33,682 bases of DNA from Gammaproteobacteria bacterium (GCA_013695765.1 JACCZW010000091.1:1-33682), one strand, 5' to 3'. Positions 2,097 through 21,011 are shown, numbered from the stretch's first letter. Translations and numbers: made by a program. Notes: a model not told the origin generated them from the sequence alone.

Positions 2097-2768
2097 CTAG
2101 CCCACCCGCCGGAACGGTCGCCCATATGCCTTCGGATCCACGGTCATCTTGTCCGGTGACGGCCGGTGGCCGCAGAGCCACGCGGCGAGATTGTCCACGA
2201 AATGATCCAGATGCTGGATCTGCTGCACGCCGTGCTCGACGATGGGATCGGAAGTGGCGGCGAACAGCACGCCGCCATAATCCGTTGTTTGCCACGCGAT
2301 CACCTCGCCAACGCGATTGCTTTGCAGAATCTCGGCGCCTTCGGGAATGCGGGTGTAAACACCATGAACGTGCCAGCATGCCTGCCGCGGCGTTAGCCCC
2401 GCAAACAAGGGATGATCAAAGCGCGTGTTCGCGATCGGTGGGTGCGTCGGATCATCGGCCCACCAGTAGTTGTTGACCGGGCGGTCTACCCACTGCGCGT
2501 CGATCCAGTGAGCCGAGTCACCGAACACAGCGATCTTTTTACCCGCGGCGAGAAACGCATACAACGCATCGCGATAAGCCGCAAGCGCAGCGTGATCAGT
2601 CTGAAACGGCACGATCAGAGAGTCGAAGCGCTCAAGCCGCGCGCGACCCAGGTCGCGTACGTAGATCAACTCGATGAAGGCCCGATATTTCGGTGCGGTA
2701 GCGACAGCGTACTGCGACCACACGCCGTTGAACACCATGCCGATGGGTTTGGATAATTGTTCAGACAT
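2097..2768 (-). CDS. Amidotransferase/ThuA-like protein 2 of uptake operon
   Basis: A 223-residue protein of unknown function and last gene of the seven-gene minus-strand operon. Its layout (N-terminal strand, FDSLIVPFQTDH, YAFLAAGKKIAVFGD) resembles the Rossmann-like class I glutamine amidotransferase or ThuA-like fold, with a central His-rich part (CWHVHGVY) and GGVLFAATSDPIVEHG near the end. The usual nucleophile Cys is replaced by a Gly/Asp/Ser stretch (FGDSAH), so amidotransferase activity is doubtful. It is a paralogue of the preceding gene: both share the 'LIVPF/LVVVP..DH..L' strand, the W-rich middle and an 'HGV/HGI' segment. Its ATG lies inside the preceding gene's final codons (ATGTCTGA), implying translational coupling. 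Confidence 0.7.
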   Translation of the reverse strand: MSEQLSKPIGMVFNGVWSQYAVATAPKYRAFIELIYVRDLGRARLERFDSLIVPFQTDHAALAAYRDALYAFLAAGKKIAVFGDSAHWIDAQWVDRPVNNYWWADDPTHPPIANTRFDHPLFAGLTPRQACWHVHGVYTRIPEGAEILQSNRVGEVIAWQTTDYGGVLFAATSDPIVEHGVQQIQHLDHFVDNLAAWLCGHRPSPDKMTVDPKAYGRPFRRVG

Positions 2769-3382
2769 GCGCCTGCTCCTGACGGGCGGAGGCGGCCCGA
2801 ATGATATTGCGATAAAGCCGCTGCAGGCCCGACGACGGCTTGGCCGGGTCCCAGTCGCCGAGCGGGCCGCTGGCGGTGGCGACGATGAGTCCTTTTGTTG
2901 AACTGATTATCCGCGATCATCACCACGCGATCGAAGTTGTCGGCCAGAACAACGCTTTCCGGGTGCGCGGTCTCGATGTGCCCGCACGCCCACCATCCGC
3001 TGATGCCGTGGGACTCGAACGTCAACTGATCCAGCTCGACGCCGTTCATAAGATCGAGCGGATCATTGATCATGCGGTAACGCACCTCGCGCAGCGGGCG
3101 CGTGTTGTCGTGCACCCACACGTTGCCGGGAATCCACGGTGTGAAAAAGCCGCAGAAGCAGGCGAGCGTCCCGCCTTGGGCCAGAAACGCCGCGATTCGA
3201 TCGCGGACTTCGTACAGCGCTACGTGATCCGCGCCGTTGGGCACGACCACTAGGTCGCCGTGCGAGAAATCCGGCGACCAGCCATCGCGCACCCGTTCGA
3301 TGCGGTAGCGAACCTGCTCGCTGTCACGAAAATAGCGCGTCGCGCCCGTGACTCCGTTATCGATTAACACGGCCTTCAACAT
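2761..3382 (-). CDS. Amidotransferase/ThuA-like protein 1, frameshifted
   Basis: From ATG 3382 the protein reads MLKAVLIDNGVTGATRYFRD and continues with DLVVVPNGADHVALYEVRDR, AAFLAQGGTLACFCGFFTPW and a WWACGHIET segment. This suggests an amidotransferase/ThuA-like fold; Cys residues sit where a nucleophile elbow is expected (LACFCGFF). After ADNQF the frame breaks at a run of four T (2893-2896; AAAA in the coding sense). Removing one base restores NKGLIVATASGPLGDWDPAK and a natural end at 2761-2763, overlapping the next start. The corrected protein has 206 residues; uncorrected, the frame runs to 2666 with an unrelated tail. The clean repair suggests a sequencing indel or a very recent mutation. 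It follows the ATPase gene immediately, whose stop codon shares a base with this ATG. Confidence 0.7.
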
Positions 3383-4167
3383 CACACCGACTCCCGCTTC
3401 ACTTGGCACGTCGGGCCGGACGCCGCGGCGTCGGCGCCCAACGCTTCCCAAAAGCTTAGCTCGCGCTGTACGCCGCTGTCCGGGTCGGCGCAGAACGCGG
3501 CGCGATCCGGATAATGACGCAGGCGTCGATCGATGATCAGGCCGAATTGATCGCCGACGCGCAGCGCCTCTTTTAGATCATGCGTGACGAACACTGAGGT
3601 GATCTCGTGTTGTCTCGCCACGCGTTTGAATAATTCCTGCATCGCTTCACGCGTCTCGGGATCCAGACTGCCAAAGGGTTCGTCCAGCAACAGCAATGCC
3701 GGCTGCACCACCAGCGCACGACCGAATGCGACTCGCTGGCGTTGCCCGCCGGACAGGCTCTCGGGTTTGCGCGCGCCGAAACCGGCTAGTTCGAGCTCGC
3801 TTAAGATTCGCTCCACCCGCGCGCGCACCTGCGCGTCCGGCTGACGCCGCAGCCGCAATCCAAACGCGATGTTTTCGAACGCGTTGAGATGGGGAAACAG
3901 CAACGGTTCCTGATACAGATAAAGCGCCTGCCGCTGCCGCGCGGGCAGACCGCTGACCTCGCGATCGTTGATAAAGATACTGCCCTGATGATCACGATCC
4001 AGACCCGCGAGCATCCGCAGCAGGGTCGTCTTGCCCGAACCCGACGCGCCGATCACGGCCAAGGTTAATCCGCGCGCGGCGCTGAAGCTCACGTTGTCGA
4101 ACAAAGGTTGCGCGCCAAAGGTCTTGCGCATCGCCTCGACCTTGAGCCAAGCCGCGGATGCATGCAT
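3382..4167 (-). CDS. ynjD: ABC transporter ATPase, YnjD-like
   Basis: A complete 261-residue nucleotide-binding subunit. It carries Walker A GASGSGKTT (residues 40-48), a Q-loop in YQEPLLF (about 85-91), the signature LSGGQ (138-142), Walker B LLLLDEP (158-164), D-loop SLD (167-169) and the switch His in THD (195-197). It should power import through the two permeases encoded just upstream. YnjD similarity is inferred from gene order with a YnjB-like binding protein. The ATG at 4167 is one base beyond the permease stop at 4169 and the stop abuts the next start, as in a tight operon. Confidence 0.88.
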   Translation of the reverse strand: MHASAAWLKVEAMRKTFGAQPLFDNVSFSAARGLTLAVIGASGSGKTTLLRMLAGLDRDHQGSIFINDREVSGLPARQRQALYLYQEPLLFPHLNAFENIAFGLRLRRQPDAQVRARVERILSELELAGFGARKPESLSGGQRQRVAFGRALVVQPALLLLDEPFGSLDPETREAMQELFKRVARQHEITSVFVTHDLKEALRVGDQFGLIIDRRLRHYPDRAAFCADPDSGVQRELSFWEALGADAAASGPTCQVKRESV

Positions 4168-4168
4168 C

Positions 4169-4984
4169 TCAGCCGCGGGCGCCGCTCGCCGCGCCGAGCG
4201 GCCACGCCAGCAAGCGGCGATTCAGCAGCACGGCGGTCAGCGGTGGCGCGATCAGCAGAACGCCGCAGGCGGCGGCCAACCTGAAATCGCCGGACCCGAA
4301 GTAGTCGAAGACCATCAAAGGCAAGGTTTGTACGCGGCCCGCACCGATCAGCCGCGCGAGCGCGAAATCGAACCACGAGATCAGAAAGGTCTGGAACAGG
4401 CTGACTCCAAGCAGCCCGGTCGCCAGCGGCACTCGCACCCGCCACCAAATCTGCAATCGATCGGCGCCGATAGACTCCGCCAGCTCGGACAGGGCCGCGA
4501 TTCTCGTGTTCCAGAATCCGCTCAACAGCAGCACCGCATAGGCGTACGTGAAAAGGAACTGCGCGATGATGACGCCCCCCACGCTCGCCGCCAGATGAAA
4601 TTTGATGAAGCCATAGTTCAGGGTCACGCCAAGCACCACAGGCGAAATCGCAAACGGCAGCAGCGCCAGCATCAAGAGCACGCCGCGCCGCCGATGCGCG
4701 GCAATGCGCTGACTGGTCACGAAGCCCGCTGCGGTCGCGCCGATGGCGACGGTCACGCCGATGAACAGTGACCGCAGCAATGCCTCCAGCAGCTCGCGAT
4801 CACCCGACAACATCACGCGCCACTGGCTCCATTGCAGTGCCGCGGGCCACAGCGCCGGGTAGCTCCACTCTCGCGTCACGGAGAGTACCAGCAGCAGGGC
4901 GAGCGGCGCCACAATCAGCACGCATAGCAGGGAAGCAAGCCCGGCGCGGATCACGCTGGCGCTCGCACGGCTCGCGGCCGCCAT
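4169..4984 (-). CDS. ABC transporter permease 2
   Basis: A 271-residue inner-membrane permease of the binding-protein-dependent type. It has about six hydrophobic segments, starting with LASLLCVLIVAPLALLLVLS, and the cytoplasmic coupling loop LAESIGADRLQIWWRVRVPL, the 'EAA' motif that contacts the ATPase. The start at 4984 (MAAASRAS) is preferred because the open frame upstream is basic, non-hydrophobic sequence overlapping permease 1. It overlaps permease 1 by 34 bases. In E. coli YnjC both permease halves are one polypeptide; here they are two genes. Confidence 0.85.
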   Translation of the reverse strand: MAAASRASASVIRAGLASLLCVLIVAPLALLLVLSVTREWSYPALWPAALQWSQWRVMLSGDRELLEALLRSLFIGVTVAIGATAAGFVTSQRIAAHRRRGVLLMLALLPFAISPVVLGVTLNYGFIKFHLAASVGGVIIAQFLFTYAYAVLLLSGFWNTRIAALSELAESIGADRLQIWWRVRVPLATGLLGVSLFQTFLISWFDFALARLIGAGRVQTLPLMVFDYFGSGDFRLAAACGVLLIAPPLTAVLLNRRLLAWPLGAASGARG

Positions 4985-5838
4985 CGGAGCGCGACCGACC
5001 AGGCTGCAAGCATCAGCAGCAGATACGCCGTCGCCATCGCGTAGGCCTGCGGCCTGGCAGTGAGATCGTAGCGCGCGAACTGAGAGTAGATCTCCACCGA
5101 GACCATTGTCGGATAACGGGCGCCGATCAGGAGTGGCACCTCGAACGCCCCCATCAGCACCACGCCATACACCGCGCACACTGGCAGCGCCCTGGCGAGC
5201 AACACGGGCAAGACCACGCGGGACAGCGCCTGCATCCGCGTGGCGCCCAAGGTGTAAGCTGACTGCCGCAGCTCCGCCAACCGCTCATTCTCGAACAAGC
5301 GATCGAAAAGAATCACAAAAAATGGCGTGATCATCGCAAAATGCGTGAACACGATGCCGACGCCGAGCCGGTCGAAGACCAGCGCGGGAAACTCCGCCGG
5401 GCGTTGAATCCAGCCCGCGGCAAACGCCAGCCGGGACAGCAAGCCGGCGTCGCCGAGGATCTGATAGCTGAGCAAGGCCGCGACGATGCCCGGCACGGCC
5501 AGCGGCGCGTAGACAAGGAACGCCTGGGGGCCGCGGCGCAACCGCGCGCCCAGCAGCAACGAGATCGCCAGGGCCGCGAGCGTCGCCAGAACCAGGGTCA
5601 CGACGGTCAGCGCCAGGCTATAGCCCAGCGACGTCCAGAAGCTGCTTGCAAGCAGCATTTCCCGCCAGTGCGCCGTGGTCCAGCCCTCGCTGAGTAGTCC
5701 CAAGGCGCCCAGGCTGTAGAGCGCCGCGAACGTCAGCGCCAGCAACGCGGTTCCCGCCGTCAGCACCACAAAGCCCGCGATCCACGGGTCCGGCCACGCG
5801 GGGCTATTGGCGAAGGATCTCGTTACGAAAGTCTTCAT
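4951..5838 (-). CDS. ABC transporter permease 1
   Basis: A 295-residue permease with about six membrane segments, for example WIAGFVVLTAGTALLALTFA and ALPVCAVYGVVLMGAFEVPL. Its EAA-type loop is LRQSAYTLGATRMQALSRVV. It would form the translocation channel with permease 2. The ATG at 5838 overlaps the end of the binding-protein gene by 35 bases, and its own end overlaps permease 2, so all membrane components appear translationally coupled. Fold and role are clear; the substrate is not. Confidence 0.86.
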   Translation of the reverse strand: MKTFVTRSFANSPAWPDPWIAGFVVLTAGTALLALTFAALYSLGALGLLSEGWTTAHWREMLLASSFWTSLGYSLALTVVTLVLATLAALAISLLLGARLRRGPQAFLVYAPLAVPGIVAALLSYQILGDAGLLSRLAFAAGWIQRPAEFPALVFDRLGVGIVFTHFAMITPFFVILFDRLFENERLAELRQSAYTLGATRMQALSRVVLPVLLARALPVCAVYGVVLMGAFEVPLLIGARYPTMVSVEIYSQFARYDLTARPQAYAMATAYLLLMLAAWSVALRWRPRAVRAPA

Positions 5839-7054
5839 CCAGACGAATCATGTACTGGGGCGCCGGCTCGGGGCGCGCATAGGGCTGCAAGTCCTCGCGC
5901 GCCGGCGCCCGGGAGCGGCCGGGGACGTTCTTAAATCGACTGCGCCAGGGTTCCGGCAAACGCTCCACCGCCAGCACGGTGCCGTCGCCCCACACGGCGG
6001 GTTTGAGTTTTTCGAGTTGCGCCGCTGGCGAAATCAAGAAGTTCGCCACCACCATCGCGGCGGCCTTGTGGGCTGAGCGCGCGACAATGCCCAAATAATG
6101 CGTGTTTTGCAGCGTGCCGGTTTTCAGCGCATAGGCTGTGGCCGTCTTCGGGAACAGGCCGATGGCGACCTTGTTGTCCACCTCGCCGTCGTTGAAACTC
6201 ATGGTAAAGTCGACCTCACCGTTGGCGAACAGTTGATGCAACTGCGCCACGTCTTTGGGAAAGGTGCGCCCGCCGCGCCAGAGGTCGGCGCGCACGCCGC
6301 GCACCCAGTCGAAGACGCGGTTCTTGAGCTGTTCGTAAACCTCTGGATCGAATGGCCCCTGCAGTTCTCGCGGCGATTCGGCGAACGTGTACATTAAAGA
6401 TTTGAGAAAACTTAAGCCCGTGAACTCGTTGTCGAAGGTGAAGCGACCCGGATGCCCGCGGATCCACTCCGCCAGCGCGTGTGGGGTTCGCGGCGGATTG
6501 GGAACCCGAGCGCGATCGATGATGAGCAATAACTGCACGTTTCCCCAGGGGCTCTCATAGCCATTGACCTTTTGCTGAAAGTCCGTCGCGATCATCGGAT
6601 TGTCCCAGTCCAGGTAGCGATCGTTGGGCAAACGCCCGGTAAAGGGGCCGTACAAAGCATCGATCTGCCGCAACTGATAAAAGACCTGACCGTTGATCCA
6701 CACCATGTCCATGCTGCTGACCGACTGGCCGGCTTCCATCTCCGTCATGAGCATGCTGGGAATGTCCGCCTGGCCGGGAACGATCTCGAGATTGATGCCG
6801 TGCCGCTCGCGCAGGCGCGGGACGACGAACTCATTCATGTAACGATTGATCGCGGGATCGCCGGTCCACATCACGAAGTAGACGGTCTGGCCGCGCGCCG
6901 CCTGCTCAATCTCCGGCCACGACAGAGATCGCGGGTCGGTCGTGTTGTCGTCGGAAGACGGGGAACAGGCCAGCAGTAAAGTCGTCAAGACGATGGCCAG
7001 CAGCAGCCGTGTTGCCGTCTCCAGCCGGATTAAACGATTGCCAGTGCGCGTCAT
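5804..7054 (-). CDS. ynjB: YnjB-like ABC substrate-binding lipoprotein
   Basis: A 416-residue binding protein with a long N-region, a hydrophobic stretch and a lipobox ending at Cys30 (LTTLLLAC), so it is probably a lipoprotein. The mature part begins with QTVYFVMWTGDPAINRYMNE, matching the start of the YnjB family (extracellular solute-binding proteins resembling iron/thiamine/polyamine binders). Later landmarks are ESPWGNVQLLLIID and FTMSFNDGEVDNKVAIGLFP. E. coli YnjB is slightly shorter. The gene lies five bases after the TonB receptor and overlaps permease 1, so outer- and inner-membrane transport are co-transcribed. The ligand of this family is not established. Confidence 0.85.
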   Translation of the reverse strand: MTRTGNRLIRLETATRLLLAIVLTTLLLACSPSSDDNTTDPRSLSWPEIEQAARGQTVYFVMWTGDPAINRYMNEFVVPRLRERHGINLEIVPGQADIPSMLMTEMEAGQSVSSMDMVWINGQVFYQLRQIDALYGPFTGRLPNDRYLDWDNPMIATDFQQKVNGYESPWGNVQLLLIIDRARVPNPPRTPHALAEWIRGHPGRFTFDNEFTGLSFLKSLMYTFAESPRELQGPFDPEVYEQLKNRVFDWVRGVRADLWRGGRTFPKDVAQLHQLFANGEVDFTMSFNDGEVDNKVAIGLFPKTATAYALKTGTLQNTHYLGIVARSAHKAAAMVVANFLISPAAQLEKLKPAVWGDGTVLAVERLPEPWRSRFKNVPGRSRAPAREDLQPYARPEPAPQYMIRLDEDFRNEILRQ

Positions 7055-7058
7055 CGAT

Positions 7059-9488
7059 TCAGAAATAGTGCCGCACGCTCACCAGCGCGCTGATCGGTTG
7101 CTCTGGAAAGACCAGGGTCGAGCCGAAGAATCCGCCATCGAAGATGGGCGAGAAGTTCTCCTGATCCGTGAGATTCAACACATCCAGCCTGAAATCGGTG
7201 TCGATGCGCCGCCAATAATAATGCGCCGAGGCGTTGAGCGTGTACTGATCCCGAATCTTTACGGTGCCGAGAAAATCCAGCGGGAACGAGCTGGTGTAGA
7301 CCAGCGAGGCGTCCGCGCCAAATCCTGACTCAAACTCGTAGCCCGCGAGCGCGGAAACCAGCACGTCCGGCAGACCCGGCACTCTTCGGTCGCTAGGGTC
7401 GAACACGGTGACGTTGGGGCTGCCGATGCCGGTGCCGTCGATAATATCCGGGCGGGAGTCGTCGAAGGCGTCGACGACGGCGCGTGAGTCCTGTACGCCG
7501 GACGAGTCGTCAAAGCGCGCGTCCAGATAGCTGGCCGCCAGATTGAAATAGGCGTGCTCCGGCCGATAGGCGAGTTGCGCTTCCACTCCCTGCGTCTTGA
7601 TGCCGCTGTTGCTGCCGTCGCGGTTGCGCAGCGAGCGGGTTTGATCGAACAGCGCGAGATCGGCGTACCAGTCGGCATTCTCCGGAGCATACTTCACGCC
7701 GACCTCGTAAAGCCGGCTTTCCGTGGCTAAGTCTTCTTCGTCGATCTGATTGCCCTCTCCCAGCACGAAACCGCCGCCCAGACTGTTCGAGGTCGACTCG
7801 CTGTAGCTTACGGCAGCGTAGGTTGCCAGGGATGGTATGGGTTTGAACGTGAGGCTGCCGTTGGCGGAGCCGAGTAACTCGCGCGTCGAGTCCTCGGCGG
7901 CCTCGACTCCAGGCGGCGGGATGGGATCGCGGGCAGTGACGTCGTACCAGTCGCCGCGCACACCGCCCAGCACATTCCAGCGCGGTGTCAACTGGACGTC
8001 CTGCTGAGCGAAGGCGCCGATCTGATAGTGCGTCGAGTCCGTGGTGTCGGAGATCATGAAGTCCCCTTCGCCGTCGCCATCTAAATCATATTGCCCGCCG
8101 GGCGAGACGAACACGCCGGGACGCAATTCCACCAGCGCCGCGCGCTGCTCAGGTGTCAGCGGGATGCGGCGACTCTCGACGGGCGCGGTCAGATCGATCG
8201 GATTGTCCGCCTCGGTCGTGAACTGGCTGTAGCCGGTGACGTCGTGATATCGCGCGTCCAGCCCGATCGTCGTCTGCTGGCGCGTCTTCAAACCTAACAG
8301 TTCGGGCGCGTCATCGATGATCAGCTCGGTGCGGTTCTCCAGCGTATCCGCGTCATCGATGATCTCGACGAAGCTGTTCTGCGCGATCTCCTCGCGTTCG
8401 AAATGCTGATAAATTCCGCGGCTGGCCACGCGCCATCCGGGCGAGAGCGTGCGTTCGAAACGCGCGTTGGCAATCACGCTCTCGTTGCCGCTGATGTCGG
8501 CCGGATCGGTGAGCACCTGGCTGCGAGGAAGCTGCACCATGCCGGTCGGGCTGATCACGGCGCCGGGCGCGGGAATGGTCGAGCCGTTGGGTTGCAAACC
8601 TTCGCCGGTGATATAGGTGCCGTTGTCGATGAGTTCCTGCGTCGGTCGGTTCCAGCCGCCGATGTCGGTAAAATCGACGTTGAAGTATTCGAAGTTGAAG
8701 TCAAACAAAGTGGAGGCGTCCGGCTTGAGCCTATAGGCCGCGAACACGCTCTGGCTTTCGTACTCGGCGAAGTCGTAGAAACTTCCTTCATCACGATTTT
8801 CAACGGCAATTCGCACACCGGATCGACCCGCGTCCAGCGGTCGCGAATAGTCCAGTTGCTGGCGGTACTGATCATAACTCCCAGCGCTCAGTTCCAGGCT
8901 TCCGCGAGCCTGATCGAGATCCGGCCGTTTGGGGATCAGGTTGATAAAGCCGCCCACTCTCTGCGTGGACCCGAGCACCACCGGCGGCGGGCCTTTGATC
9001 ACGTCGATCTGCTCGAAACTGTTCAACGACAACGGCGCGCCCAAACCGTTGTTTCCGCCCTGACGACGCAGGCCGTCCTGAAATATCTCGCCTAACTGGC
9101 CGCGGATCTCCGGCAGGCTCGCGACACCAAAGGTGTTCGGCGCGTAGGTGTTCGGCACCACTCTTTGCAGATCGCGAATTTCGACGATGTTCGCGCGTTC
9201 AATTAAATCCCCGGAAATCGGCGTCACGGCGCGCGGCGTGTCGAGCACGGAGCGGCTGCCGCCGAACGGCCCCTCTACATCGAGTTCGCTCGGCAGCGCC
9301 GGCAGAATAAGCGGCGCGCTCGCCTCGGCCTCGATCAATATCGGTTCCAGCTCAACCGGCTTTGCGCGCCCGACGCCCGACGTTTCGTTCTCGGCTCGGA
9401 CAAGGCTTGAAGTCAAAGCCATTCCAGCAAGCAATAGAGCTACGGTTAACGCGCAGCGCCCAGCCTCGCTATTGTTAGTTTTCGACAC
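7059..9488 (-). CDS. TonB-dependent outer-membrane receptor
   Basis: An 809-residue receptor opened by GTG at 9488. It has a signal peptide (residues 1 to about 32, ending SSLVRA), a possible TonB box around 47-56 (ELEPILIEAE), a plug of about 75-190 with the conserved IDVIKGPPPVVLGSTQRVGG, and a long beta-barrel ending in the aromatic VRHYF expected for BAM insertion. Plug style is close to the siderophore-receptor group, but no ligand can be inferred. It is the first gene of the minus-strand operon and probably moves the ligand into the periplasm for the YnjB-like protein. The ribosome binding site is weak. A perfect 11-bp hairpin lies in its leader. Confidence 0.9.
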   Translation of the reverse strand: MSKTNNSEAGRCALTVALLLAGMALTSSLVRAENETSGVGRAKPVELEPILIEAEASAPLILPALPSELDVEGPFGGSRSVLDTPRAVTPISGDLIERANIVEIRDLQRVVPNTYAPNTFGVASLPEIRGQLGEIFQDGLRRQGGNNGLGAPLSLNSFEQIDVIKGPPPVVLGSTQRVGGFINLIPKRPDLDQARGSLELSAGSYDQYRQQLDYSRPLDAGRSGVRIAVENRDEGSFYDFAEYESQSVFAAYRLKPDASTLFDFNFEYFNVDFTDIGGWNRPTQELIDNGTYITGEGLQPNGSTIPAPGAVISPTGMVQLPRSQVLTDPADISGNESVIANARFERTLSPGWRVASRGIYQHFEREEIAQNSFVEIIDDADTLENRTELIIDDAPELLGLKTRQQTTIGLDARYHDVTGYSQFTTEADNPIDLTAPVESRRIPLTPEQRAALVELRPGVFVSPGGQYDLDGDGEGDFMISDTTDSTHYQIGAFAQQDVQLTPRWNVLGGVRGDWYDVTARDPIPPPGVEAAEDSTRELLGSANGSLTFKPIPSLATYAAVSYSESTSNSLGGGFVLGEGNQIDEEDLATESRLYEVGVKYAPENADWYADLALFDQTRSLRNRDGSNSGIKTQGVEAQLAYRPEHAYFNLAASYLDARFDDSSGVQDSRAVVDAFDDSRPDIIDGTGIGSPNVTVFDPSDRRVPGLPDVLVSALAGYEFESGFGADASLVYTSSFPLDFLGTVKIRDQYTLNASAHYYWRRIDTDFRLDVLNLTDQENFSPIFDGGFFGSTLVFPEQPISALVSVRHYF

Positions 9489-9828: not shown

Positions 9829-10647
9829 TTACTTTGCGTCGTTCAAGGTCCAGTCGTAATCGTCGCCGCTGCTGTGGTCCACGCCTGCAAGCTGCTTGCG
9901 GAGCTCGGGCCCGGCGTATCGCTTGAGGTGTGCAATCACGCCGGCGTCGGAGCCGCCGAAGTCGGACTTGAACCACTCGTAAATGCTGGAGACGTACAGC
10001 TCGCCCTCCTCCATGCGCGCGCCGCGCGGCGAGTTGACGTATGCGCTGGCGTTGGCTTCGGCAAGCCTTTGCGCGTTTTCGCCGGTATACGCGTCGCGGA
10101 CAAGATTGGGGCAGCCAACCGAAGCGCAGTTCACGCTGTAGTGGATAAGCGGGTCTTTCCAGATGGGGCGCAGGATGCGGTGCTCGATGTCGTCGAGGCT
10201 CACGGCCTCACCTTCGACCTTAAGAAACGGCTCGCTCCACGGCCCGCTGGTGAAAAACCCGCCGCCCAGATCGATGTCGCGGATGCTCTCCACCGGGTAA
10301 TGCTCGAGCACTGTTTTGATCGTGGCGGCGTTGTATAGATTGATCCAGTACGCGCGCTGTTCATCGCGGTTGTAGCCGCTGATTTTAACCGCCTGTAGCG
10401 CGGCCAGATAACCGGACAGATCCCACAGGTCCTTTGCCGTTACTGCACCGTAGCTGAAACGGTTCAAGCCCAGTGCGGCTGACCGAATGTACTTCTTCAG
10501 CAGCTTATCCCAGACGGCGTGGTCAATGACCGCGGTGGACTTTTCGTCATGCGCTGTCCAGCGCTCCCACAGCTCGGCCTCGGGCGCGGCCGATGCAGTG
10601 ACCGCGAAGGTCAACCCCACCGCCAGTAAAGCAAGTTGCCGCAGCAC
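9829..10647 (-). CDS. Secreted DUF547 protein
   Basis: A 272-residue protein with a clear signal peptide (MLRQLALLAVGLTFAVTASA) and the DUF547 core: RAYWINLYNAATIKTVLEHY, the Cys-containing HYSVNCASVGCPNL (the family's most conserved segment), and SPRGARMEEGELYVSSIYEW. DUF547 proteins are secreted or lipid-anchored proteins of unknown activity. The gene is transcribed away from lactonase 1, with a shared 310-base intergenic region. It precedes the TonB operon on the same strand, but the 340-base gap suggests a separate transcript. Confidence 0.88.
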   Translation of the reverse strand: MLRQLALLAVGLTFAVTASAAPEAELWERWTAHDEKSTAVIDHAVWDKLLKKYIRSAALGLNRFSYGAVTAKDLWDLSGYLAALQAVKISGYNRDEQRAYWINLYNAATIKTVLEHYPVESIRDIDLGGGFFTSGPWSEPFLKVEGEAVSLDDIEHRILRPIWKDPLIHYSVNCASVGCPNLVRDAYTGENAQRLAEANASAYVNSPRGARMEEGELYVSSIYEWFKSDFGGSDAGVIAHLKRYAGPELRKQLAGVDHSSGDDYDWTLNDAK

Positions 10648-10957
10648 GTTAGTCCCTCCGCTTATTTTTCATTACCGAGTCTACGAGCCTTCCAAAGCAA
10701 TGCAGGCTGTACCACCGCGTAAGCGTTACGCCGGCAAGCTCGGTCGGATGCGGGCAGTATGTTAACTGAATCTTCTCGCGCCGCGAATCAGTGTTTTCAC
10801 TGCCAAAAAGTACTTGTTAGTGCCGATTCTATGCGTTCGAGCACCGCCTACACTCGTTTTTTAGTTGCCCCACGGTTCATCGACCTATCGTCAAGCAGTA
10901 GTAAACGGCGCCGCCTCGTTGAACACATGCTCACCATCGCTTCCGGAGACATGCGTT
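10648..10957. other. Divergent promoter region, DUF547 / lactonase 1
   Basis: This 310-base region separates two genes read in opposite directions and must hold both promoters. It lacks the 11-bp repeat element found before lactonase 2. No inverted repeat of note was seen. GGAG at 10944-10947 is the lactonase ribosome binding site. Confidence 0.4.
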
Positions 10958-12154
10958 ATGCAACCAATCGAATTATCCAATATCTTTAAACGAACAACAC
11001 TTTGCGCGGGACTGACCCTGATCGCAGGCACCACCTACGCCGCCAGTCAGGAGGCGCCGCAACCCGGCGCCGTCTACGTGATGACCAACGAGGCCGCTGG
11101 CAACGGCATAGCAGTGTTTGCTCGCGCCGCCGGTGGCACAGTGGCGTTGCAAGGCACCGTTGCCACCGGCGGCCTGGGTGTCGGTGCGTTACTGGATTCG
11201 CAGGATGCCCTGATCCTGAACGATGACCACAGCTTGCTGTTCGCGGCCAACTCCGGCAGCGACGAGATCACCGTATTTGCCGTGAGTGCCGACGGCCTGG
11301 AATTAACCGAGGTCAGCCGCGTTGCTTCGGGTGGTGACCGCCCGGTAAGCCTGACCATCAATGATAGTCTCCTCTACGTCCTCAACTCCGGCAGCGAGGG
11401 CAACATCACCGGCTTTACGGTGGGCGAGAACGGAGCCCTTACTCCGCTGGCGGATTCAACCCAATCTTTAAGCACCAGCGAATTCATCCCCTGCAGCGAA
11501 CTACCCTTTCCTCGCGAAGCCACGGGCGACTGCAATGTCGTGAGTCCCGGCGAGGTGGAGTTCAGCCCCGACGGCCGCTTTCTGGTGGTGACGGAACGCT
11601 TGATCAACCAGTTCAGCGTCTATCCGGTAAGCGATGCAGGGGTAGCGGGCTCGGCCACGCAGCAGCCTTCCGCGGGTGAGACACCGTTCGGATTCGCCTT
11701 CGATGCGCAAGGCCGCATGTTCGTTTCGGAGGCCTTTGAGGACCGTCCCGCCGAGGGCGCGGCCTCCTCGTATAACCTTTCCGAGGATGGCGAACTAAGC
11801 GTCATCACCAACTCACTCCATAATACGGAAAACGCCTCGTGCTGGCTCGTGGTCACGCCGGACGGACGCTATACCTACACCGCGAACCCACAGGCCGGCA
11901 CCATCACGGGCTACGCCATCAACGAAAACGGCAGCCTGCGCTTGCTCGATGCGGACGGCGTCACTGGCGGCGGTGAGGACCGCACCGGCGACCCTCGGGA
12001 TATCGAATTGAGCGCCGACGGTCGTTATCTGTACTCACTGAACAATGTCGGGTTCACCTTGGCGATTCATCAGGTGAACGGCAACGGCAGTCCCACCCGT
12101 CTACCTGGCGCGCGCGGGTTTCCACCCAACTCGGTAGGAATCGCGGCCTTCTGA
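10958..12154 (+). CDS. Secreted beta-propeller lactonase-family protein 1
   Basis: A 398-residue secreted protein. ATG 10958 is chosen because GGAG precedes it by about ten bases and it opens a signal peptide ending near TTYAASQ; longer reading adds non-signal sequence. The mature part has repeated beta-propeller blades (LLFAANSGSDEITVFAVSAD, LLYVLNSGSEGNITGF, FSPDGRFLVVTERLINQFSV, LSADGRYLYSLNN), the pattern of the lactonase/YncE-type propeller (PF10282, 6-phosphogluconolactonase-like). The export signal argues against a cytosolic pentose-phosphate role. Substrate unknown. Lactonase 2 is a clear paralogue with the same blade order and similar ends. Confidence 0.88.
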   Translation: MQPIELSNIFKRTTLCAGLTLIAGTTYAASQEAPQPGAVYVMTNEAAGNGIAVFARAAGGTVALQGTVATGGLGVGALLDSQDALILNDDHSLLFAANSGSDEITVFAVSADGLELTEVSRVASGGDRPVSLTINDSLLYVLNSGSEGNITGFTVGENGALTPLADSTQSLSTSEFIPCSELPFPREATGDCNVVSPGEVEFSPDGRFLVVTERLINQFSVYPVSDAGVAGSATQQPSAGETPFGFAFDAQGRMFVSEAFEDRPAEGAASSYNLSEDGELSVITNSLHNTENASCWLVVTPDGRYTYTANPQAGTITGYAINENGSLRLLDADGVTGGGEDRTGDPRDIELSADGRYLYSLNNVGFTLAIHQVNGNGSPTRLPGARGFPPNSVGIAAF

Positions 12155-13579: not shown

Positions 13580-14443
13580 ATGCGTAGCTTTATTATCTTG
13601 ATTCTCGGCGGTTGCATGGTTTGCTCGTCCGGCGCGCATGGCGCGCCGATCAACGAACTCGTCACGCAGGCCATGCAAGGTGATCATCGCGATCCCGCAA
13701 ACGTTGAACGTGACCGTTATCGTCATCCCTTACAAACCTTGCGGTTCTTGGGATTAAGGTCGGACATGACGGCGGTCGAAATATGGCCCGGCGAGGGCTG
13801 GTACACGGAGATTTTAGCGCCGGTCATGCGGCCTGAAGGCATCTACTATGCGGCGGGGTTTGCGATGACGGCGAGCCGCACTCCACAGTGGCGCGAGGAC
13901 ATGCAGATCGCCTACATGAACAAACTCGGAAAACAGCCGGACGTCTACGATCACGTCGTCAGTACCGAACTCTCATACCCCGAGCGCACGACCATCGCGC
14001 CGCCGGGAACCGCCGACATCGTGCTGACCTTCCGCAACGTGCACAACTGGATGCAAGGCCACTATGCCCCCGGAATGTTTCGGGCGTTTTACCGGGCCTT
14101 GAAACCGGGCGGCATCTTGGGGTTGGTGGAACATCGCGCCAAGCCCGGCGCCACTATGAAAACCATGATCGAGAGTGGCTACGTCACCGAGCGGCACATC
14201 ATCGACCTGGCCCGCCAGGCCGGTTTCGAACTGGAGGCGAAGTCCGAGATCAACGCCAACCCCGAAGATACGAAAGACTATCCGGAGGGCGTCTGGACAT
14301 TGCCGCCGACTTTGCGTCTCTGCGCGGAGATGGATGAGGGTCCCGATCAGAAGCGTTGTGACCGGAAGTACCGTGCGATCGGCGAATCGGACCGCATGAC
14401 GCTTCGCTTCCGTAAGCCCGTGACGTCCACTACTGCGAAATGA
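13580..14443 (+). CDS. Secreted SAM methyltransferase-like protein 1
   Basis: A 287-residue protein with an N-terminal signal (MRSFIILILGGCMVCSSGAH) followed by a class I methyltransferase-like domain. Motif I is TAVEIWPGEGWYTEILAP; motif IV resembles DIVLTFRNVHNWM; post-motif GGILGLVEHR is also present. It matches the COG4798 'predicted methyltransferase' pattern, in which the nucleotide-binding glycine loop is modified and many members carry export signals. Activity outside the cytoplasm would lack SAM, so a non-methyltransferase role is possible. A close paralogue lies at 30412-31197. The ribosome binding site is poor. Confidence 0.82.
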   Translation: MRSFIILILGGCMVCSSGAHGAPINELVTQAMQGDHRDPANVERDRYRHPLQTLRFLGLRSDMTAVEIWPGEGWYTEILAPVMRPEGIYYAAGFAMTASRTPQWREDMQIAYMNKLGKQPDVYDHVVSTELSYPERTTIAPPGTADIVLTFRNVHNWMQGHYAPGMFRAFYRALKPGGILGLVEHRAKPGATMKTMIESGYVTERHIIDLARQAGFELEAKSEINANPEDTKDYPEGVWTLPPTLRLCAEMDEGPDQKRCDRKYRAIGESDRMTLRFRKPVTSTTAK

Positions 14444-15247: not shown

Positions 15248-15364
15248 TCCCGTGTTTGTGTAGCTACTGCTTCGTTTTTTTGCGAACTGTCGCGAGGCTG
15301 ACAGACACCGCAGGGCGCGATTCCTATATTCGGGCGCGTACACCTGAGCTGCGGAGGAAATGTG

Positions 15365-15979
15365 ATGAAGGCGATCGCGTTGATTGTGGGTAGCGGGCTA
15401 CTGCTGTGGGGAAGTGTGTTGCTCTTGCCGGGTTTGCTGCCAGACGCCGTGGCGGTGGCCGGGAACGACCCCGGCCGTGAGGACTTCTCTCCTTACGTGG
15501 ATCAACACGGCAACATCTCCCGGCCAACAGGATTCCGCCAGAACTGGACGCATCTGGGCACCTGGTATGTACCCGACACCGAGCAAGCCAAGGGCCCCGG
15601 ATTCCACGACGTGTATGCCTCACCCGGAACCGTCGAGGCGTATAAGAAGACGGGCAAATTCCCGGATGGCGCGGTCCTGGTGAAGGATATCCGCGCGATC
15701 GAATCCAAACCGCTAACCACCGGCAACGCGCACTGGGCAGGCGACACGGGGGTCTGGTTCGTCATGGTGAAGGATCGCAAGGGCCGCTTTCCGGACAACG
15801 CGATATGGGGTGAGGGCTGGGGCTGGGCCTTGTTCAAGGCAGACAAACCGTCGGTGAATGTCACTCACAACTGGAAACAGGACGAGGGTTTGAGCAACTG
15901 CTACGGCTGTCACGTGCCGACCAAGCAAACGGACTGGGTATACACCGAAGGCTATCCCACGCTCAGGAGTGAGAAATAA
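15365..15979 (+). CDS. Cytochrome P460-family c-type haem protein
   Basis: A 204-residue exported protein with an N-terminal hydrophobic signal (residues about 3-30) and a single haem-binding CYGCH near the C-terminus (179-183), the position typical of the cytochrome P460/cytochrome c'-beta family. The family strand TGKFPDGAVLVKD is present, as are several aromatic beta strands (GVWFVMVKDRKGRFPD, GWGWALF). P460 enzymes oxidise hydroxylamine or NO via a Lys-haem cross-link, while c'-beta members bind NO. I cannot tell from sequence alone which lysine, if any, is cross-linked. ATG 15365 is chosen over GTG 15362 because GGAGG (15353-15357) is optimally spaced. Confidence 0.85.
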   Translation: MKAIALIVGSGLLLWGSVLLLPGLLPDAVAVAGNDPGREDFSPYVDQHGNISRPTGFRQNWTHLGTWYVPDTEQAKGPGFHDVYASPGTVEAYKKTGKFPDGAVLVKDIRAIESKPLTTGNAHWAGDTGVWFVMVKDRKGRFPDNAIWGEGWGWALFKADKPSVNVTHNWKQDEGLSNCYGCHVPTKQTDWVYTEGYPTLRSEK

Positions 15980-16180
15980 CGGCGGACCAGAGCGAGGCGT
16001 ATATCCAGGTCGGCAGCGATAGATGTCGTGCCCGCCGCGCTCGCCTTGCTGTGTCTCGTGCAACATGGGGATCGGTACAGATCGATGTGTTATGTGCGAA
16101 CAGGTCTGCCTGATTCGTCAGTGTTTATCCGTATACAAAAATACCTATTTCCGCCGATACAGGATATTTGACACGATGTT

Positions 16181-16186
16181 TATAAT
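16181..16186 (+). promoter_or_regulatory. Candidate -10 (TATAAT) for small lipoprotein gene
   Basis: A perfect TATAAT lies 33 bases before the start at 16219 in an AT-rich pocket. A TTGACA at 16171-16176 is much too close to act with it as a -35; at proper spacing only TACAGG is seen. A promoter is likely, but its -35 is uncertain. Confidence 0.45.
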
Positions 16187-16218
16187 AAACCGAGAATCAA
16201 TAGCTTATCACGCGAGCC

Positions 16219-16431
16219 ATGAAAAACATTTATCCGTCAGGCGGTATTGCGCTGGCCACCGCCGCCGCTGCTTTGTTTGTGACAGTATCGCTGCCCGGTT
16301 GCGCGACGCAGGAGCAGGCTGCTCGGCAAGCAGCTAATAGCTCGACTCGAGGTTATATGCAGGATCAATATCCGGGCCCCGCGCGTCCCTGCACCGTCAA
16401 CATCTGCGGCGGGCACAGCGACTGCAAGTGA
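16219..16431 (+). CDS. Small Cys-containing lipoprotein, bufferin-like remnant
   Basis: A 70-residue protein. MKNIYPSGGIALATAAAALF leads into a lipobox-like SLPGC (Cys28), so it is probably a lipoprotein. The C-terminus CTVNICGGHSDCK matches the first Cys repeat of the next gene ([15 protein letters not shown]) and stops there. This suggests a shortened BufA2-type protein keeping one of several Cys repeats. Bufferins are small periplasmic metal-sequestering peptides, usually encoded with DUF692 and DUF2063 maturation genes. Neither partner is in this window. Confidence 0.6.
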   Translation: MKNIYPSGGIALATAAAALFVTVSLPGCATQEQAARQAANSSTRGYMQDQYPGPARPCTVNICGGHSDCK

Positions 16432-16624
16432 GTAACATCCGGCGTGTGCCACCACGCACGAATACACTCGCAAATCGGTGTTTTCCCTGATTTCTTTACT
16501 GATTGGCTCGGCATATATTCAGTTCGGGCAATACCTGTATTGATTGAACGACTAAATACGGCGTGCTTTGCAGTAACGGTTTGCTCAGCGCCTGCCAAAA
16601 TCACCCGAATTGAAGAGAGTTACC

Positions 16625-16914
16625 ATGATTACATCAAAAAGAATTACGGTCTCGCTCTGGCCGCCACCGCCGCCGCCTTGTTCGCCACGGCGCCGATCAC
16701 CGCTTCCGCGGCGGAGTCCAGCGAAAGCCACTGTATGGGTGTCAATGCGTGTAAAGGCCAGAGCGACTGCAAGACAGCCCACAATGCCTGCGAAGGAAAG
16801 AATGCCTGCAAGGGCAAGGGCTTCATGACCATGACCGAAGAGGAATGCGCGGAGGAAGGCGGAGATTTTGTGATGGCGGGTTTTCTGAAGAAAGGCATGA
16901 TACAAGCCAACTAA
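16625..16914 (+). CDS. BufA2-type bufferin metallophore, start frameshifted
   Basis: The body reads [20 protein letters not shown] then [37 protein letters not shown] and a C-terminal [20 protein letters not shown]. That is an export signal followed by the Cys/Gly/Lys repeats of BufA2-family periplasmic metal-binding proteins. The natural start, ATG 16625 behind GAAGAGAG, is one base out of phase with it. Adding one A to the A5 run near 16636-16640 would give [14 protein letters not shown]. So this is either a homopolymer sequencing error, a fresh mutation, or slippage. No DUF692/DUF2063 partner gene is adjacent. A strong hairpin follows the stop. Confidence 0.7.
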
Positions 16915-17093: not shown

Positions 17094-17225
17094 TCAGGCC
17101 GTTACCTGGCAGGGCACAATCTCTGCCAGTTGACCTTGCGCTTCGGCGCGCAGACAAGCTCCACCGACCATGCATTGAAACCCCAATCCCGAATAATTCA
17201 CTGAGTCATGACAAAGGGAGCACAC

Positions 17226-17846
17226 ATGGCAATTCACAACGAGGATGATCGCAACATACCGTGGTTGTGGATAGGTCTCGGACTGGCCCTGATCGCGCTC
17301 ATGGCTGCCTGGTTTTTCCTCCCGGTGAGTGAGCGGCTGAAGTCCTTCAATCAATGGATCGAGAGTCTGGGTGTGTGGGGTTACGTGATCTTCGCCGCGG
17401 TCTATATTGTCGCCACGGTGCTGCTTGCGCCCGGCTCACCCTTGACGATCGCGGCGGGACTTGTCTTCAGCGGCTGGGGATTTCCGCTGGTCGTCATCGC
17501 CGCGACCGTCGGCGCCGCGCTCGCCTTTCTGGTCGCGCGTTATCTCGCCAGGGCGCGGGTCGAGCGCATGACCGAGAACAGGCCCAAGTTCAAGGCCGTC
17601 GACCAGGCCGTTACCGAGGATGGCTGGAAGGTGGTAATGCTATTGCGCTTGAGCCCAGTGGTGCCTTTTAACCTGCAGAACTATTTCTTCGGCGTCACCG
17701 ATGTCAAATTCTGGCATTACGTCGCGGCGACCTTTGTCGGCATCATCGCGACGATCGTGGTCACCGTGCTGATCACTCGCAAGGCCAAGGCGAGACTCGA
17801 CGAGATCGGTCTCGAGGCGGGCTCAGCCAAGGGTTCTTCAGCGTAG
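17226..17846 (+). CDS. TVP38/TMEM64 (VTT) membrane protein
   Basis: A 206-residue inner-membrane protein with about five hydrophobic segments. The VTT-domain core is ATVLLAPGSPLTIAAGLVFS, followed by GAALAFLVARYLAR and LLRLSPVVPFNLQNYFFGVT, the most conserved motifs of the TVP38/TMEM64/DedA-related family. The ATG at 17226 is preferred to the one at 17208, since AAGGGAG lies just before it. The family is linked to lipid scrambling/transport in eukaryotes; the bacterial role is unclear. In many bacteria such genes sit next to a MerA-like flavoprotein, as here. Confidence 0.88.
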   Translation: MAIHNEDDRNIPWLWIGLGLALIALMAAWFFLPVSERLKSFNQWIESLGVWGYVIFAAVYIVATVLLAPGSPLTIAAGLVFSGWGFPLVVIAATVGAALAFLVARYLARARVERMTENRPKFKAVDQAVTEDGWKVVMLLRLSPVVPFNLQNYFFGVTDVKFWHYVAATFVGIIATIVVTVLITRKAKARLDEIGLEAGSAKGSSA

Positions 17847-17889
17847 GGGAGCGGTGGGCGATGAACGCACACCAGTGGACTGTGACGGT

Positions 17890-17958
17890 CGAATGCGTAG
17901 CATTCGTAGGTCGCCAATCCTTTGGCGACAGCGCGTCGGGAAAGGATTCCCGACCTAC
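17890..17958. repeat. REP-like cluster of palindromes
   Basis: Three consecutive hairpins: CGAATGC/GCATTCG (17890-17906, loop 3), GTCGCCAA/TTGGCGAC (17910-17929, loop 4) and GTCGGGAA/TTCCCGAC (17935-17954, loop 4). GTAGGTCG (17906-17913) can also pair with CGACCTAC (17951-17958), closing the last two hairpins into one structure. The GTAGGTCG...CGACCTAC frame with a TCGGGAA stem is typical of repetitive extragenic palindromes. It lies between the VTT and flavoprotein genes. Confidence 0.65.
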
Positions 17959-18032
17959 AAGATTCGCTCCTGAAATGGCCGTTACAGTCCGCTAGTACAT
18001 GAACTATTCGACGATCTTGTCTGGTTTACACG

Positions 18033-19454
18033 ATGACAAATAACGAGCGGCAGGACCTGGTGATTCTGGGCGGTGGCGTCGGCGGACTGATCGTCGCCAG
18101 CGTGGCGGGGCAGCTTGGCCTAAAGGTGACCCTGATCGAGAAGGCCGACAGCCTGGGCGGTGACTGCCTGCACCACGGCTGCGTTCCCAGCAAGACCCTT
18201 ATTCACAGCGCCAAGGTGGCCTCGCTCATGCGACGCGGCGAAGAGTTCGGCTTGCCGGGGATCGATGCGGACATCCATCTGGGGCGTGTGATGAAACACG
18301 TTGCGGATGTGGTCGCCGCTATTCAGGAACACGATGATCCGGAGCGTTTTCGAGGATACGGTTGTGAAGTCATCTTCGGCAGCCCGCGATTTCTGGACTC
18401 TCATCGTGTAGAGGTGAACGACAAAACGATAAGCGGCCGGCGCTTCGTGATCGCGACCGGCGCGGGTCCCGCGGTGCCGCCTGTGGAGGGACTCGACCGG
18501 GTCAAGCACCTCACCAACAGGACGGTTTTCAGCCACGACAAGCTCCCCAATAGGCTGTTAGTCCTGGGCGGCGGCCCGATCGGCGTCGAGCTCGCGCAGG
18601 CCTTTCTGCGCCTGGGGAGTCAGGTCGCGCTTGTGGAGCAAGGCGCGCATCTGGTGCCAAAGGAAGATCCGGACGTCTCCACCGCGCTGCGAGAGCAACT
18701 CATGCGCGAAGGCATGGAGGTCCACACCGATAGCAGCGCGCAGCGCATCCAAAGTATCGACGGAACGCTAGAACTCGAGTGCAAGGGTGGCCTAAAGCTC
18801 AAAGGCGACACGCTGCTGGTCGCACTCGGCCGCAAGCCCAACATCGAAGGTCTCGGCCTCGAAGCCGCCGGGGTCGCCCATGACAAGCGCGGGATCGAAG
18901 TCGACTCCCGCCTGCGCACCTCGCAAAAACACATTTTTGCCTGCGGCGATGTATGCGGGCCGTATCCATTCACGCATATGGCGGAGTATCAGGCCGGGAT
19001 CGTCATCAGCAACGCTGTGTTCCGCTGGCCAAAAAAGGTCGATTATTCCGTGGTGCCGTGGGTGACCTACACCGACCCGGAGGTCGCTCGTGTCGGCTTG
19101 AACGAGACGCAGGCGAACGAGCAAGGCGTCGATTACAAACTGCTGCGTTTCAACTTCAAAGATGTAGATCGCGCACTCGCCGAAGTCGAGCCGCATGGTT
19201 ATATCAAGATGCTGATTCGCAAGAACCGCATCCTCGGCGCGACCATACTCGGCCCGCAGGCGGGCGAACTCGTACACGAGATCGTTCTGGCCATGCAAGC
19301 AAAAGTGAAGCTGGGCACCATCAGCGCCGCCATTCATGTGTATCCTACGCTTGCGCAAATCACCCGCCGCGCGGTGAATACCTATTACGGGGAAAAGCTT
19401 TTTTCGCCCCGCACGAAAAAACTGGTTGGCGTCATCAATAGGCTGATTCCGTGA
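18033..19454 (+). CDS. MerA-like FAD/NAD(P) disulfide oxidoreductase
   Basis: A 473-residue class I pyridine nucleotide-disulfide reductase. It has the FAD loop LGGGVGG (12-18), redox-active pair Cys45/Cys50 in GGDCLHHGCVPSK, a second Rossmann loop LGGGPIGVE, the second FAD motif HIFACGDVCG and a dimerisation domain ending IHVYPTLAQITRR. The catalytic His is kept, but the Glu that normally follows in the His-Glu pair is Gln here. It lacks the N-terminal metal-binding domain and C-terminal Cys pair of true mercuric reductase. Pairing with the upstream VTT gene is a recurrent arrangement, though the REP cluster separates them. Substrate unknown. Confidence 0.88.
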   Translation: MTNNERQDLVILGGGVGGLIVASVAGQLGLKVTLIEKADSLGGDCLHHGCVPSKTLIHSAKVASLMRRGEEFGLPGIDADIHLGRVMKHVADVVAAIQEHDDPERFRGYGCEVIFGSPRFLDSHRVEVNDKTISGRRFVIATGAGPAVPPVEGLDRVKHLTNRTVFSHDKLPNRLLVLGGGPIGVELAQAFLRLGSQVALVEQGAHLVPKEDPDVSTALREQLMREGMEVHTDSSAQRIQSIDGTLELECKGGLKLKGDTLLVALGRKPNIEGLGLEAAGVAHDKRGIEVDSRLRTSQKHIFACGDVCGPYPFTHMAEYQAGIVISNAVFRWPKKVDYSVVPWVTYTDPEVARVGLNETQANEQGVDYKLLRFNFKDVDRALAEVEPHGYIKMLIRKNRILGATILGPQAGELVHEIVLAMQAKVKLGTISAAIHVYPTLAQITRRAVNTYYGEKLFSPRTKKLVGVINRLIP

Positions 19455-19790: not shown

Positions 19791-21011
19791 ATGAATAGCA
19801 CACGACAAAGATACCGGCACCTCGACCTCTTAGCGGGGATCATGTTGACGATGATCGCGACGGGCGCTGGCGCGGCCCATGCCCAGGCCGATAACGTATC
19901 GAATCCCCACGAGGGTAACGGCGACAGTGATGTGGGTGCTGTCTACGTCAACAACAATGCAACGCCCCGTAACAGCGTCGTCATCCTTAGCCGGGAAGCC
20001 GACGGCACGCTCAAAGAGCAGGATAGAGTCGGAACAGGCGGCCGAGGAACCGGAAATATATTGGAGTCGCAAGGTGCTCTAGTCCTTAGCGAAGGCGGCG
20101 AGTGGCTGTTCGCAGCCAACGCAGGCAGCGACGATATTTCTGTTTTCGCCGTCATTGAGGGTGGTGGGCTGGTCCGCGTCGATAAAGTTTCTTCGGGTGG
20201 TGATCGGCCACTCAGTTTAGCCGTTTCGGAGGATCTGTTGTACGTCCTCAATGCTGGCAGTGCAGGTAACATCACGGCCTTCACCGTGAACCCGAACGGC
20301 AGCCTGACCCCGTTGGCCGATTCAACCCGTTCACTGAGCACTACCGCAATCGAGCCGTGCCCGCCTCTTGTGACAGATCTCGGCGACCCTGACGCCGTGT
20401 GCAGCGTCGCCGGCCCCGCACAGATACAGTTCAGCCCAGGCGGCAACGTAATCGTCGTCACGGAAAGGCTCACCAACCTGATCGACACCTACACGGTCGG
20501 AGACGACGGGCGGACGACCGGCTTTGCGACACACCCCGCCGCCGGAATGACGCCGTTCGGCTTCGACTTTGCCAAACGCGGGCGGCTGATCGTCTCCAAT
20601 AACTTTCTCGACGGCTCCGGCCTCGGCGGGGCGGCCTCTTATCTCCTCTCTGAAGATAGCGGCGTCGTCGCTACAGTGACCGAAAACTTACCTAATGGCC
20701 AGACAGCGTCCTGTTGGATGATCGTCACGAACGACGGGCGCTACGCCTACGTGTCCAACCCCCTATCCGGCACGCTCACCAGCTACACCATCCAAAATGA
20801 CGGCGGCATCAGCTTGCTGAGGGCCGTGGCCGGTGTGACCGGCGAAGACCCCAGAGACCCGGGCCTGAGCGACAACGGCCGCTATCTATACATTTTGAAC
20901 AACTTCGCGGGAACGGTTAATGCCTTCCGCGTGAATGGAAACGGAAGACTCAAGTTTATCGAAGAGGTAAGCGGAATTGTACCAGGCGCTGTGGGCCTCG
21001 CTGCGCGCTAA
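19791..21011 (+). CDS. Secreted beta-propeller lactonase-family protein 2
   Basis: A 406-residue secreted propeller protein paralogous to lactonase 1. The signal peptide covers about residues 1-34 (LAGIMLTMIATGAGAAHAQA). Blade motifs include LFAANAGSDDISVFAVIEGG, LLYVLNAGSAGNITAFTVNP, FSPGGNVIVVTERLTNLIDT and LSDNGRYLYILNNFAGTVNA. The two paralogues also share a Cys-bracketed insertion after LADSTRSLSTT. AGGAGAG precedes the ATG. Expression is probably under element B. The lactonase name reflects the fold family (PF10282); a periplasmic or extracellular substrate is likely but unknown. Confidence 0.88.
   Translation: MNSTRQRYRHLDLLAGIMLTMIATGAGAAHAQADNVSNPHEGNGDSDVGAVYVNNNATPRNSVVILSREADGTLKEQDRVGTGGRGTGNILESQGALVLSEGGEWLFAANAGSDDISVFAVIEGGGLVRVDKVSSGGDRPLSLAVSEDLLYVLNAGSAGNITAFTVNPNGSLTPLADSTRSLSTTAIEPCPPLVTDLGDPDAVCSVAGPAQIQFSPGGNVIVVTERLTNLIDTYTVGDDGRTTGFATHPAAGMTPFGFDFAKRGRLIVSNNFLDGSGLGGAASYLLSEDSGVVATVTENLPNGQTASCWMIVTNDGRYAYVSNPLSGTLTSYTIQNDGGISLLRAVAGVTGEDPRDPGLSDNGRYLYILNNFAGTVNAFRVNGNGRLKFIEEVSGIVPGAVGLAAR

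Follow-up and report, generated by a model that had tools for sequence, protein, structure and literature searches.

In this study we asked what is imported by an operon of a Gammaproteobacteria bacterium that joins a TonB-dependent receptor to a YnjBCD-type ABC importer and to two small paralogous proteins (here A and B), and what these two proteins contribute. The operon lies within a DNA stretch of 33,682 nucleotides (GCA_013695765.1 JACCZW010000091.1:1-33682), referred to as the window. A sequence-only reading had taken seven packed, co-directional genes for one operon, and our analysis agrees: they run on the minus strand from 9488 to 2097 and overlap or lie a few base pairs apart. In the order of transcription they encode a siderophore-receptor-like TonB-dependent receptor of 809 aa (7059–9488; Pfam plug and barrel domains), a 416-aa solute-binding lipoprotein (SBP) of the YnjB family (5804–7054; lipobox LLLAC, SBP_bac_8 match), ABC permease 1 (4951–5838, overlapping the SBP gene), ABC permease 2 (4169–4984; the frame is open from 5179 and a start near 4984 was assumed), an ABC ATPase of 261 aa (3382–4167), protein A (2762–3382) and protein B (2097–2768; 223 aa), with gene B overlapping the end of gene A. 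A and B comprise ~210–223 aa. The transport assignments were confirmed by matches to Pfam, NF008633, BPD_transp_1 (both permeases) and ABC_tran (115 bits).

The unit is probably larger by one gene, and one of its members is damaged. A DUF547 gene (9829–10647, minus strand; Pfam DUF547, 82.7 bits) precedes the receptor gene across a gap of 340 bases, in contrast to the overlaps or few-base spacing between all other neighbors, and is probably the upstream start of the transcription unit, making eight genes. This assignment is based on its presence at the same place in a second genomic copy and on a 23-bp site located upstream of it in both copies. The second copy, on contig C12 of the genome (3.13 Mb, 99% complete), contains the eight genes in identical order, and the two copies are 77–87% identical. 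Since the whole eight-gene block was duplicated, we regard it as a unit and not as chance packing. The dN/dS values between the copies were 0.07–0.20 across all eight genes, with the lowest value for B (0.067), 0.10 for the receptor and 0.20 for the DUF547 gene, indicating that all eight are under purifying selection. Window gene A carries a one-base frameshift near 2900 relative to the intact C12 gene, and the sequence beyond it remains conserved in another frame; it is thus present but not as one intact ORF, the cause being a recent mutation or an error of assembly.

The 23-bp site, with the dyad CAGTG-AAAA-CACTG (window 10782–10804, minus strand; C12 23848–23870), has exactly two occurrences in the genome, one ahead of each DUF547 gene. 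The copies differ at one variable position and one dyad arm is imperfect in C12, and the arrangement suggests a candidate operator. Riboswitches were found neither in the window nor in seven loci of relatives. In the C12 copy, A and B are split by an insertion of ~9–10 kb (about 6.3–15.9 kb of locus L005), which contains type I restriction-modification genes and a Fic-type gene. Beside gene B of this copy (L005 2034–5389, plus strand) are genes for a radical SAM protein, another DUF547 protein, a DUF427 protein and a YnjF-like CDP-alcohol phosphatidyltransferase, the last of which was not seen at the window copy. Elsewhere the window encodes a cytochrome P460 and, directly after it, a small protein of secreted appearance whose repeat region is Cys-rich and of the ACKG type (15362–16914, plus strand), as well as paralogue pairs of methyltransferase-like proteins (13580–14443 and 30412–31197) and lactonase-type beta-propellers (10865–12154 and 19791–21011).

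The SBP scored 391.7 bits against NF008633, the YnjB-containing subfamily (cut-off 203), and SBP, permeases and ATPase are encoded in one operon, as in a YnjBCD system. The locus resembles Escherichia coli ynjABCDEF in this SBP and, at the second copy, in the YnjF-like gene adjoining gene B; the split permeases are as in Metabacillus and Deinococcus. It differs in that the window SBP is a lipoprotein and that a TonB receptor, a DUF547 protein and A–B are added, none of which occur in the canonical loci inspected. YnjB relatives in other genomes are 31–39% identical to the window SBP, and every YnjB locus inspected outside the window genome lacks TonB, A and B. The VTT (TVP38/TMEM64) protein and pyridine-nucleotide-disulphide oxidoreductase genes of the window (17208–19454, plus strand) have counterparts next to the ynjBCD genes of Metabacillus, at 37% and 40% identity. 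The literature revealed no established ligand for YnjBCD-type importers and nothing relevant on ynjBCD or ThuA-like proteins with siderophores; to our knowledge, such importers are not known to carry iron. The closest solved structures of the receptor are the enantio-pyochelin and pyoverdine (FpvA) receptors, with which it shares plug and barrel. Its score against TIGR01783, however, was 107.2 bits, below the cut-off of 223.5.

To follow the two small proteins across genomes, we used tblastn of B against plasmids, which revealed relatives at 25–30% identity in Rhizobium, Methylosinus, Paenibacillus, Cupriavidus and others, and a scan of 84,980 species genomes, which yielded at least 305 relatives. 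The best 80 of these genome loci together with 12 plasmid loci gave the 92 loci compared here. A adjoins B in all 92, as it does in the window, and 33 ORFs are A–B fusions; some Rhizobium loci have a second fusion in the order B–A. The two genes form a conserved, importer-linked pair. On haloarchaeal plasmids of Natribaculum, A and B are located between an SBP gene and genes for an Fbp-like permease and ATPase, and these archaeal proteins match the window proteins at E 2e-12. The pair is present in Rhizobium johnstonii 3841, and in some genomes, e.g., Thalassospira, it has no neighboring transporter. Gene B was found in none of the 368 other genomes of a 369-genome sample of the class (Gammaproteobacteria) and in three other genomes of a 398-genome phylum sample, with the host order represented by only three genomes.

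The partner of the pair is not constant. At least five classes of importer were found with A–B. Importers of the FecBCD iron-chelate type account for about 74 of the 92 loci, a class over-represented because the 80 genome loci were picked for their resemblance to the Methylosinus protein, and those of the Opp/Nik type for about 13. The others are an Ssu/Nrt-type importer in Chelatococcus, the Fbp-like archaeal importer and YnjBCD, the last in the window genome only. Parsimony on the B tree, with loci lacking a recognised importer left out, gave at least eight changes of importer class, so the pair swaps between unrelated importers. The sequence-only reading had named conserved co-occurrence of YnjB with a TonB receptor and the two families as the point to check; a linkage specific to YnjBCD was not borne out, and YnjBCD as the constant partner of A–B was rejected.

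In 75 of the 92 loci FecBCD and A–B are followed by gene C, which encodes a ~171-aa distant relative of FmdE (e.g., L013:9554-10078, L014:9602-10117 and L015:12596-13111, and most of the loci L022–L101). Matches of this protein to TAL effectors in the PDB were rejected as an artefact of short-repeat composition. Gene C also follows a FecBCD set that leads into C–P lyase genes, and FecBCD with gene C stands directly upstream of phnG in L015, L017, L020, L070, L078, L090 and L094, which suggests either metal-phosphonate import or a shared importer. The Rhizobiales FecBCD-type siderophore importer operons share with the window the A–B pair, usually followed there by gene C. They differ in the importer superfamily, in gene C, which was not found in the window operon, and in B itself, the window protein being only ~20–30% identical.

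Homology between A and B (36% over ~100 aa; phmmer 8e-6 to 2e-5) confirms that they are paralogues, and window A matches Paenibacillus A (phmmer 3e-11). Their earlier description as ThuA-like holds for B at the level of fold and, weakly, in the sequences of its relatives, 4 of 34 of which match PF06283 (best E 4.7e-4); neither window protein has a match in Pfam or NCBIfam, including ThuA PF06283. A predicted model of window B (pLDDT 83.7) was matched by Foldseek to ThuA-like 1t0b (TM about 0.58), lin1909 and amidotransferase domains (E 1e-5 to 1e-4, probability 1.0, TM 0.55–0.59). For a fused A–B relative the model gave a confident two-domain arrangement (pLDDT 90.1, pTM 0.90), and its PDB matches are superfamily members: the IFT52 N-terminal domain, STM3548 and lin1909. 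No homologue came up in PDB sequence searches, whether each protein was used singly or profiles of B and of A–B were used, so that support for the fold comes from structure prediction. On this prediction and the weak Pfam matches of relatives, B is placed in the ThuA/class-I-amidotransferase superfamily. The fused model and the constancy of the pair are also in line with the heterodimer that had been suggested. The pair departs from known superfamily members in lacking a Pfam match in the window proteins and a conserved Cys nucleophile, and in being an obligate two-protein pair.

Which of the two would be catalytic is another matter. The sequence-only reading had assigned a Cys nucleophile to A and a non-catalytic role to B, so that A would be the enzyme, a Cys-dependent amidotransferase or hydrolase, and B a pseudoenzyme; the class-I amidotransferase-like fold of B and the Cys residues close to a strand-end glycine in window A are consistent with this. 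Comparison of 98 A and 101 B proteins argues strongly the other way. The Cys is present at its column in 1 of the 98 A proteins, window A itself, and nearly all 98 have F and G where window A has these Cys residues; the Cys nucleophile of class-I glutamine amidotransferases is likewise absent in A relatives and at the corresponding place in B. B is in addition the more conserved subunit, keeping W102, W103, H119, W132, H133, H135, D174, P175 and G180 from the window through archaea, whereas A varies more, and many residues of the A family have been lost from window A. We therefore rejected the Cys/pseudoenzyme pair, which is very improbable. Since the Cys of A is confined to the window lineage and B retains invariant His, Asp and Trp residues, the earlier assignment is reversed and B appears to be the working subunit; an active site, if confined to one subunit, more likely sits in B than in A. 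No signal peptide was seen by eye on either protein.

The promoters of the relatives point to iron. RirA is a repressor of iron uptake genes. Its operator, TGA-N9-TCA as defined in PMC6386902 and PMC8822346, was found upstream of the FecB gene in 42 of 75 relatives, within 200 bp in 40. When independent upstream clusters of the Rhizobiales FecBCD operons were counted, the box was present in 21 of 36, against a frequency of 12.5% in control windows of matched GC content (P about 1e-10). No enrichment was seen upstream of relatives for Zur, NikR, ModE, Mur, Irr or PhoB boxes. A near-perfect palindromic Fur-like box, GCAAATGATAATCATTTGC, precedes the TonB gene in Cupriavidus, with a close variant in a second genome, and in Methylosinus and Methylocystis the A–B copies lie in iron islands with siderophore receptors, FecIR-type regulators, HemP and flavodoxin. 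At the window operon itself no convincing Fur box was found, nor a RirA or Irr operator at its promoter. Its link to iron is therefore inferred from the relatives and the receptor type, and its regulator may be something other than Fur.

Three other cargoes were weighed against a ferric chelate. The cargo could be an organophosphorus compound (phosphonate or phospho-ester), possibly metal-bound, with A–B preparing it for C–P lyase or lipid metabolism. In Labrenzia and Martelella, phnG/phnH are closely preceded, on the same strand, by A–B, FecBCD and gene C, PhnG is found in 8 of the 92 loci, CDP-alcohol phosphatidyltransferase genes occur in canonical ynjBCD loci as well as by the second copy here, and permease 2 best resembles 2-aminoethylphosphonate permeases, although with a score far below the cut-off. 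Most loci, however, have no phn genes, none was recognised among the window ORFs listed, and the RirA and Fur boxes indicate iron where PhoB-type boxes are not enriched. We consider this cargo unlikely but keep it in view because 8 loci have phn genes and canonical ynjBCD has neighbors of the phospholipid type.

Slightly less probable again is a chelate of another metal (nickel, cobalt, molybdenum or zinc), for which the Opp/Nik-type importers, a HupE/UreJ gene with DUF2478 in a Paracoccaceae locus and the distant relationship of gene C to FmdE could be cited; the strong enrichment of RirA boxes, with none for Zur, NikR, ModE or Mur, speaks against it. TonB receptors import glycans too, and the fold neighbors of A–B include ThuA-like 1t0b, GH42 galactosidases and IFT52, so that a sugar or glycoside cargo might be envisaged, with A–B ThuA-like in action or carbohydrate-binding like GH42 trimerisation or GIFT domains. 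Considering that A–B has, in the loci read, no constant neighbor among genes for glycoside hydrolases, SusD or sugar catabolism, and that the relatives have iron-type promoters, we rate this as the least probable of the three cargoes.

The reading we prefer, and to which we give about an even chance, is that the locus is an operon for TonB–ABC uptake of a ferric (or similar) chelate, with an A–B heterodimer acting on the cargo inside the cell. A complete route from the outer membrane to the cytoplasm, with two paralogous amidotransferase-fold partners, had been proposed from the gene content and is supported here. By analogy with the relatives, whose cargo class the window operon would share, the cargo would be an anionic metal chelate, and most likely ferric. 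The receptor would bring the chelate into the periplasm, where the YnjB-family lipoprotein would pass it to the two-permease, ATP-driven importer. In the cytoplasm the A–B heterodimer, of a divergent amidotransferase (ThuA) fold, would take the chelate and then strip its iron or hydrolyse the ligand. B would bear the candidate ligand or metal site (H119, H133, H135, D174 and the WW pair), and A would be the more variable partner, stripped in the window lineage of most family-wide residues. Because window B is on a very long branch of the B tree, the cargo may have changed relative to that of the relatives.

More broadly, A–B may be an undescribed portable two-protein module of bacteria and haloarchaea, an iron-release or chelate-cleaving heterodimer of amidotransferase fold that carries out a single common step on ferric chelates once they are inside the cell and that the window lineage rewired to a TonB–YnjBCD route; we advance this proposal tentatively and with less confidence than the reading of the locus itself. 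As the pair is located beside many unrelated pumps in bacteria and archaea and is often iron-controlled, its role is probably that of a general partner in dealing with iron compounds after import. Only in the case of a few siderophores is it understood how imported chelates give up their iron. Conserved, shifting from one unrelated importer to another and placed behind iron-responsive promoters, the A–B pair offers a concrete candidate for a general step. It also gives a handle on what YnjBCD-type importers carry and, being present in genetically tractable rhizobia, is directly testable.
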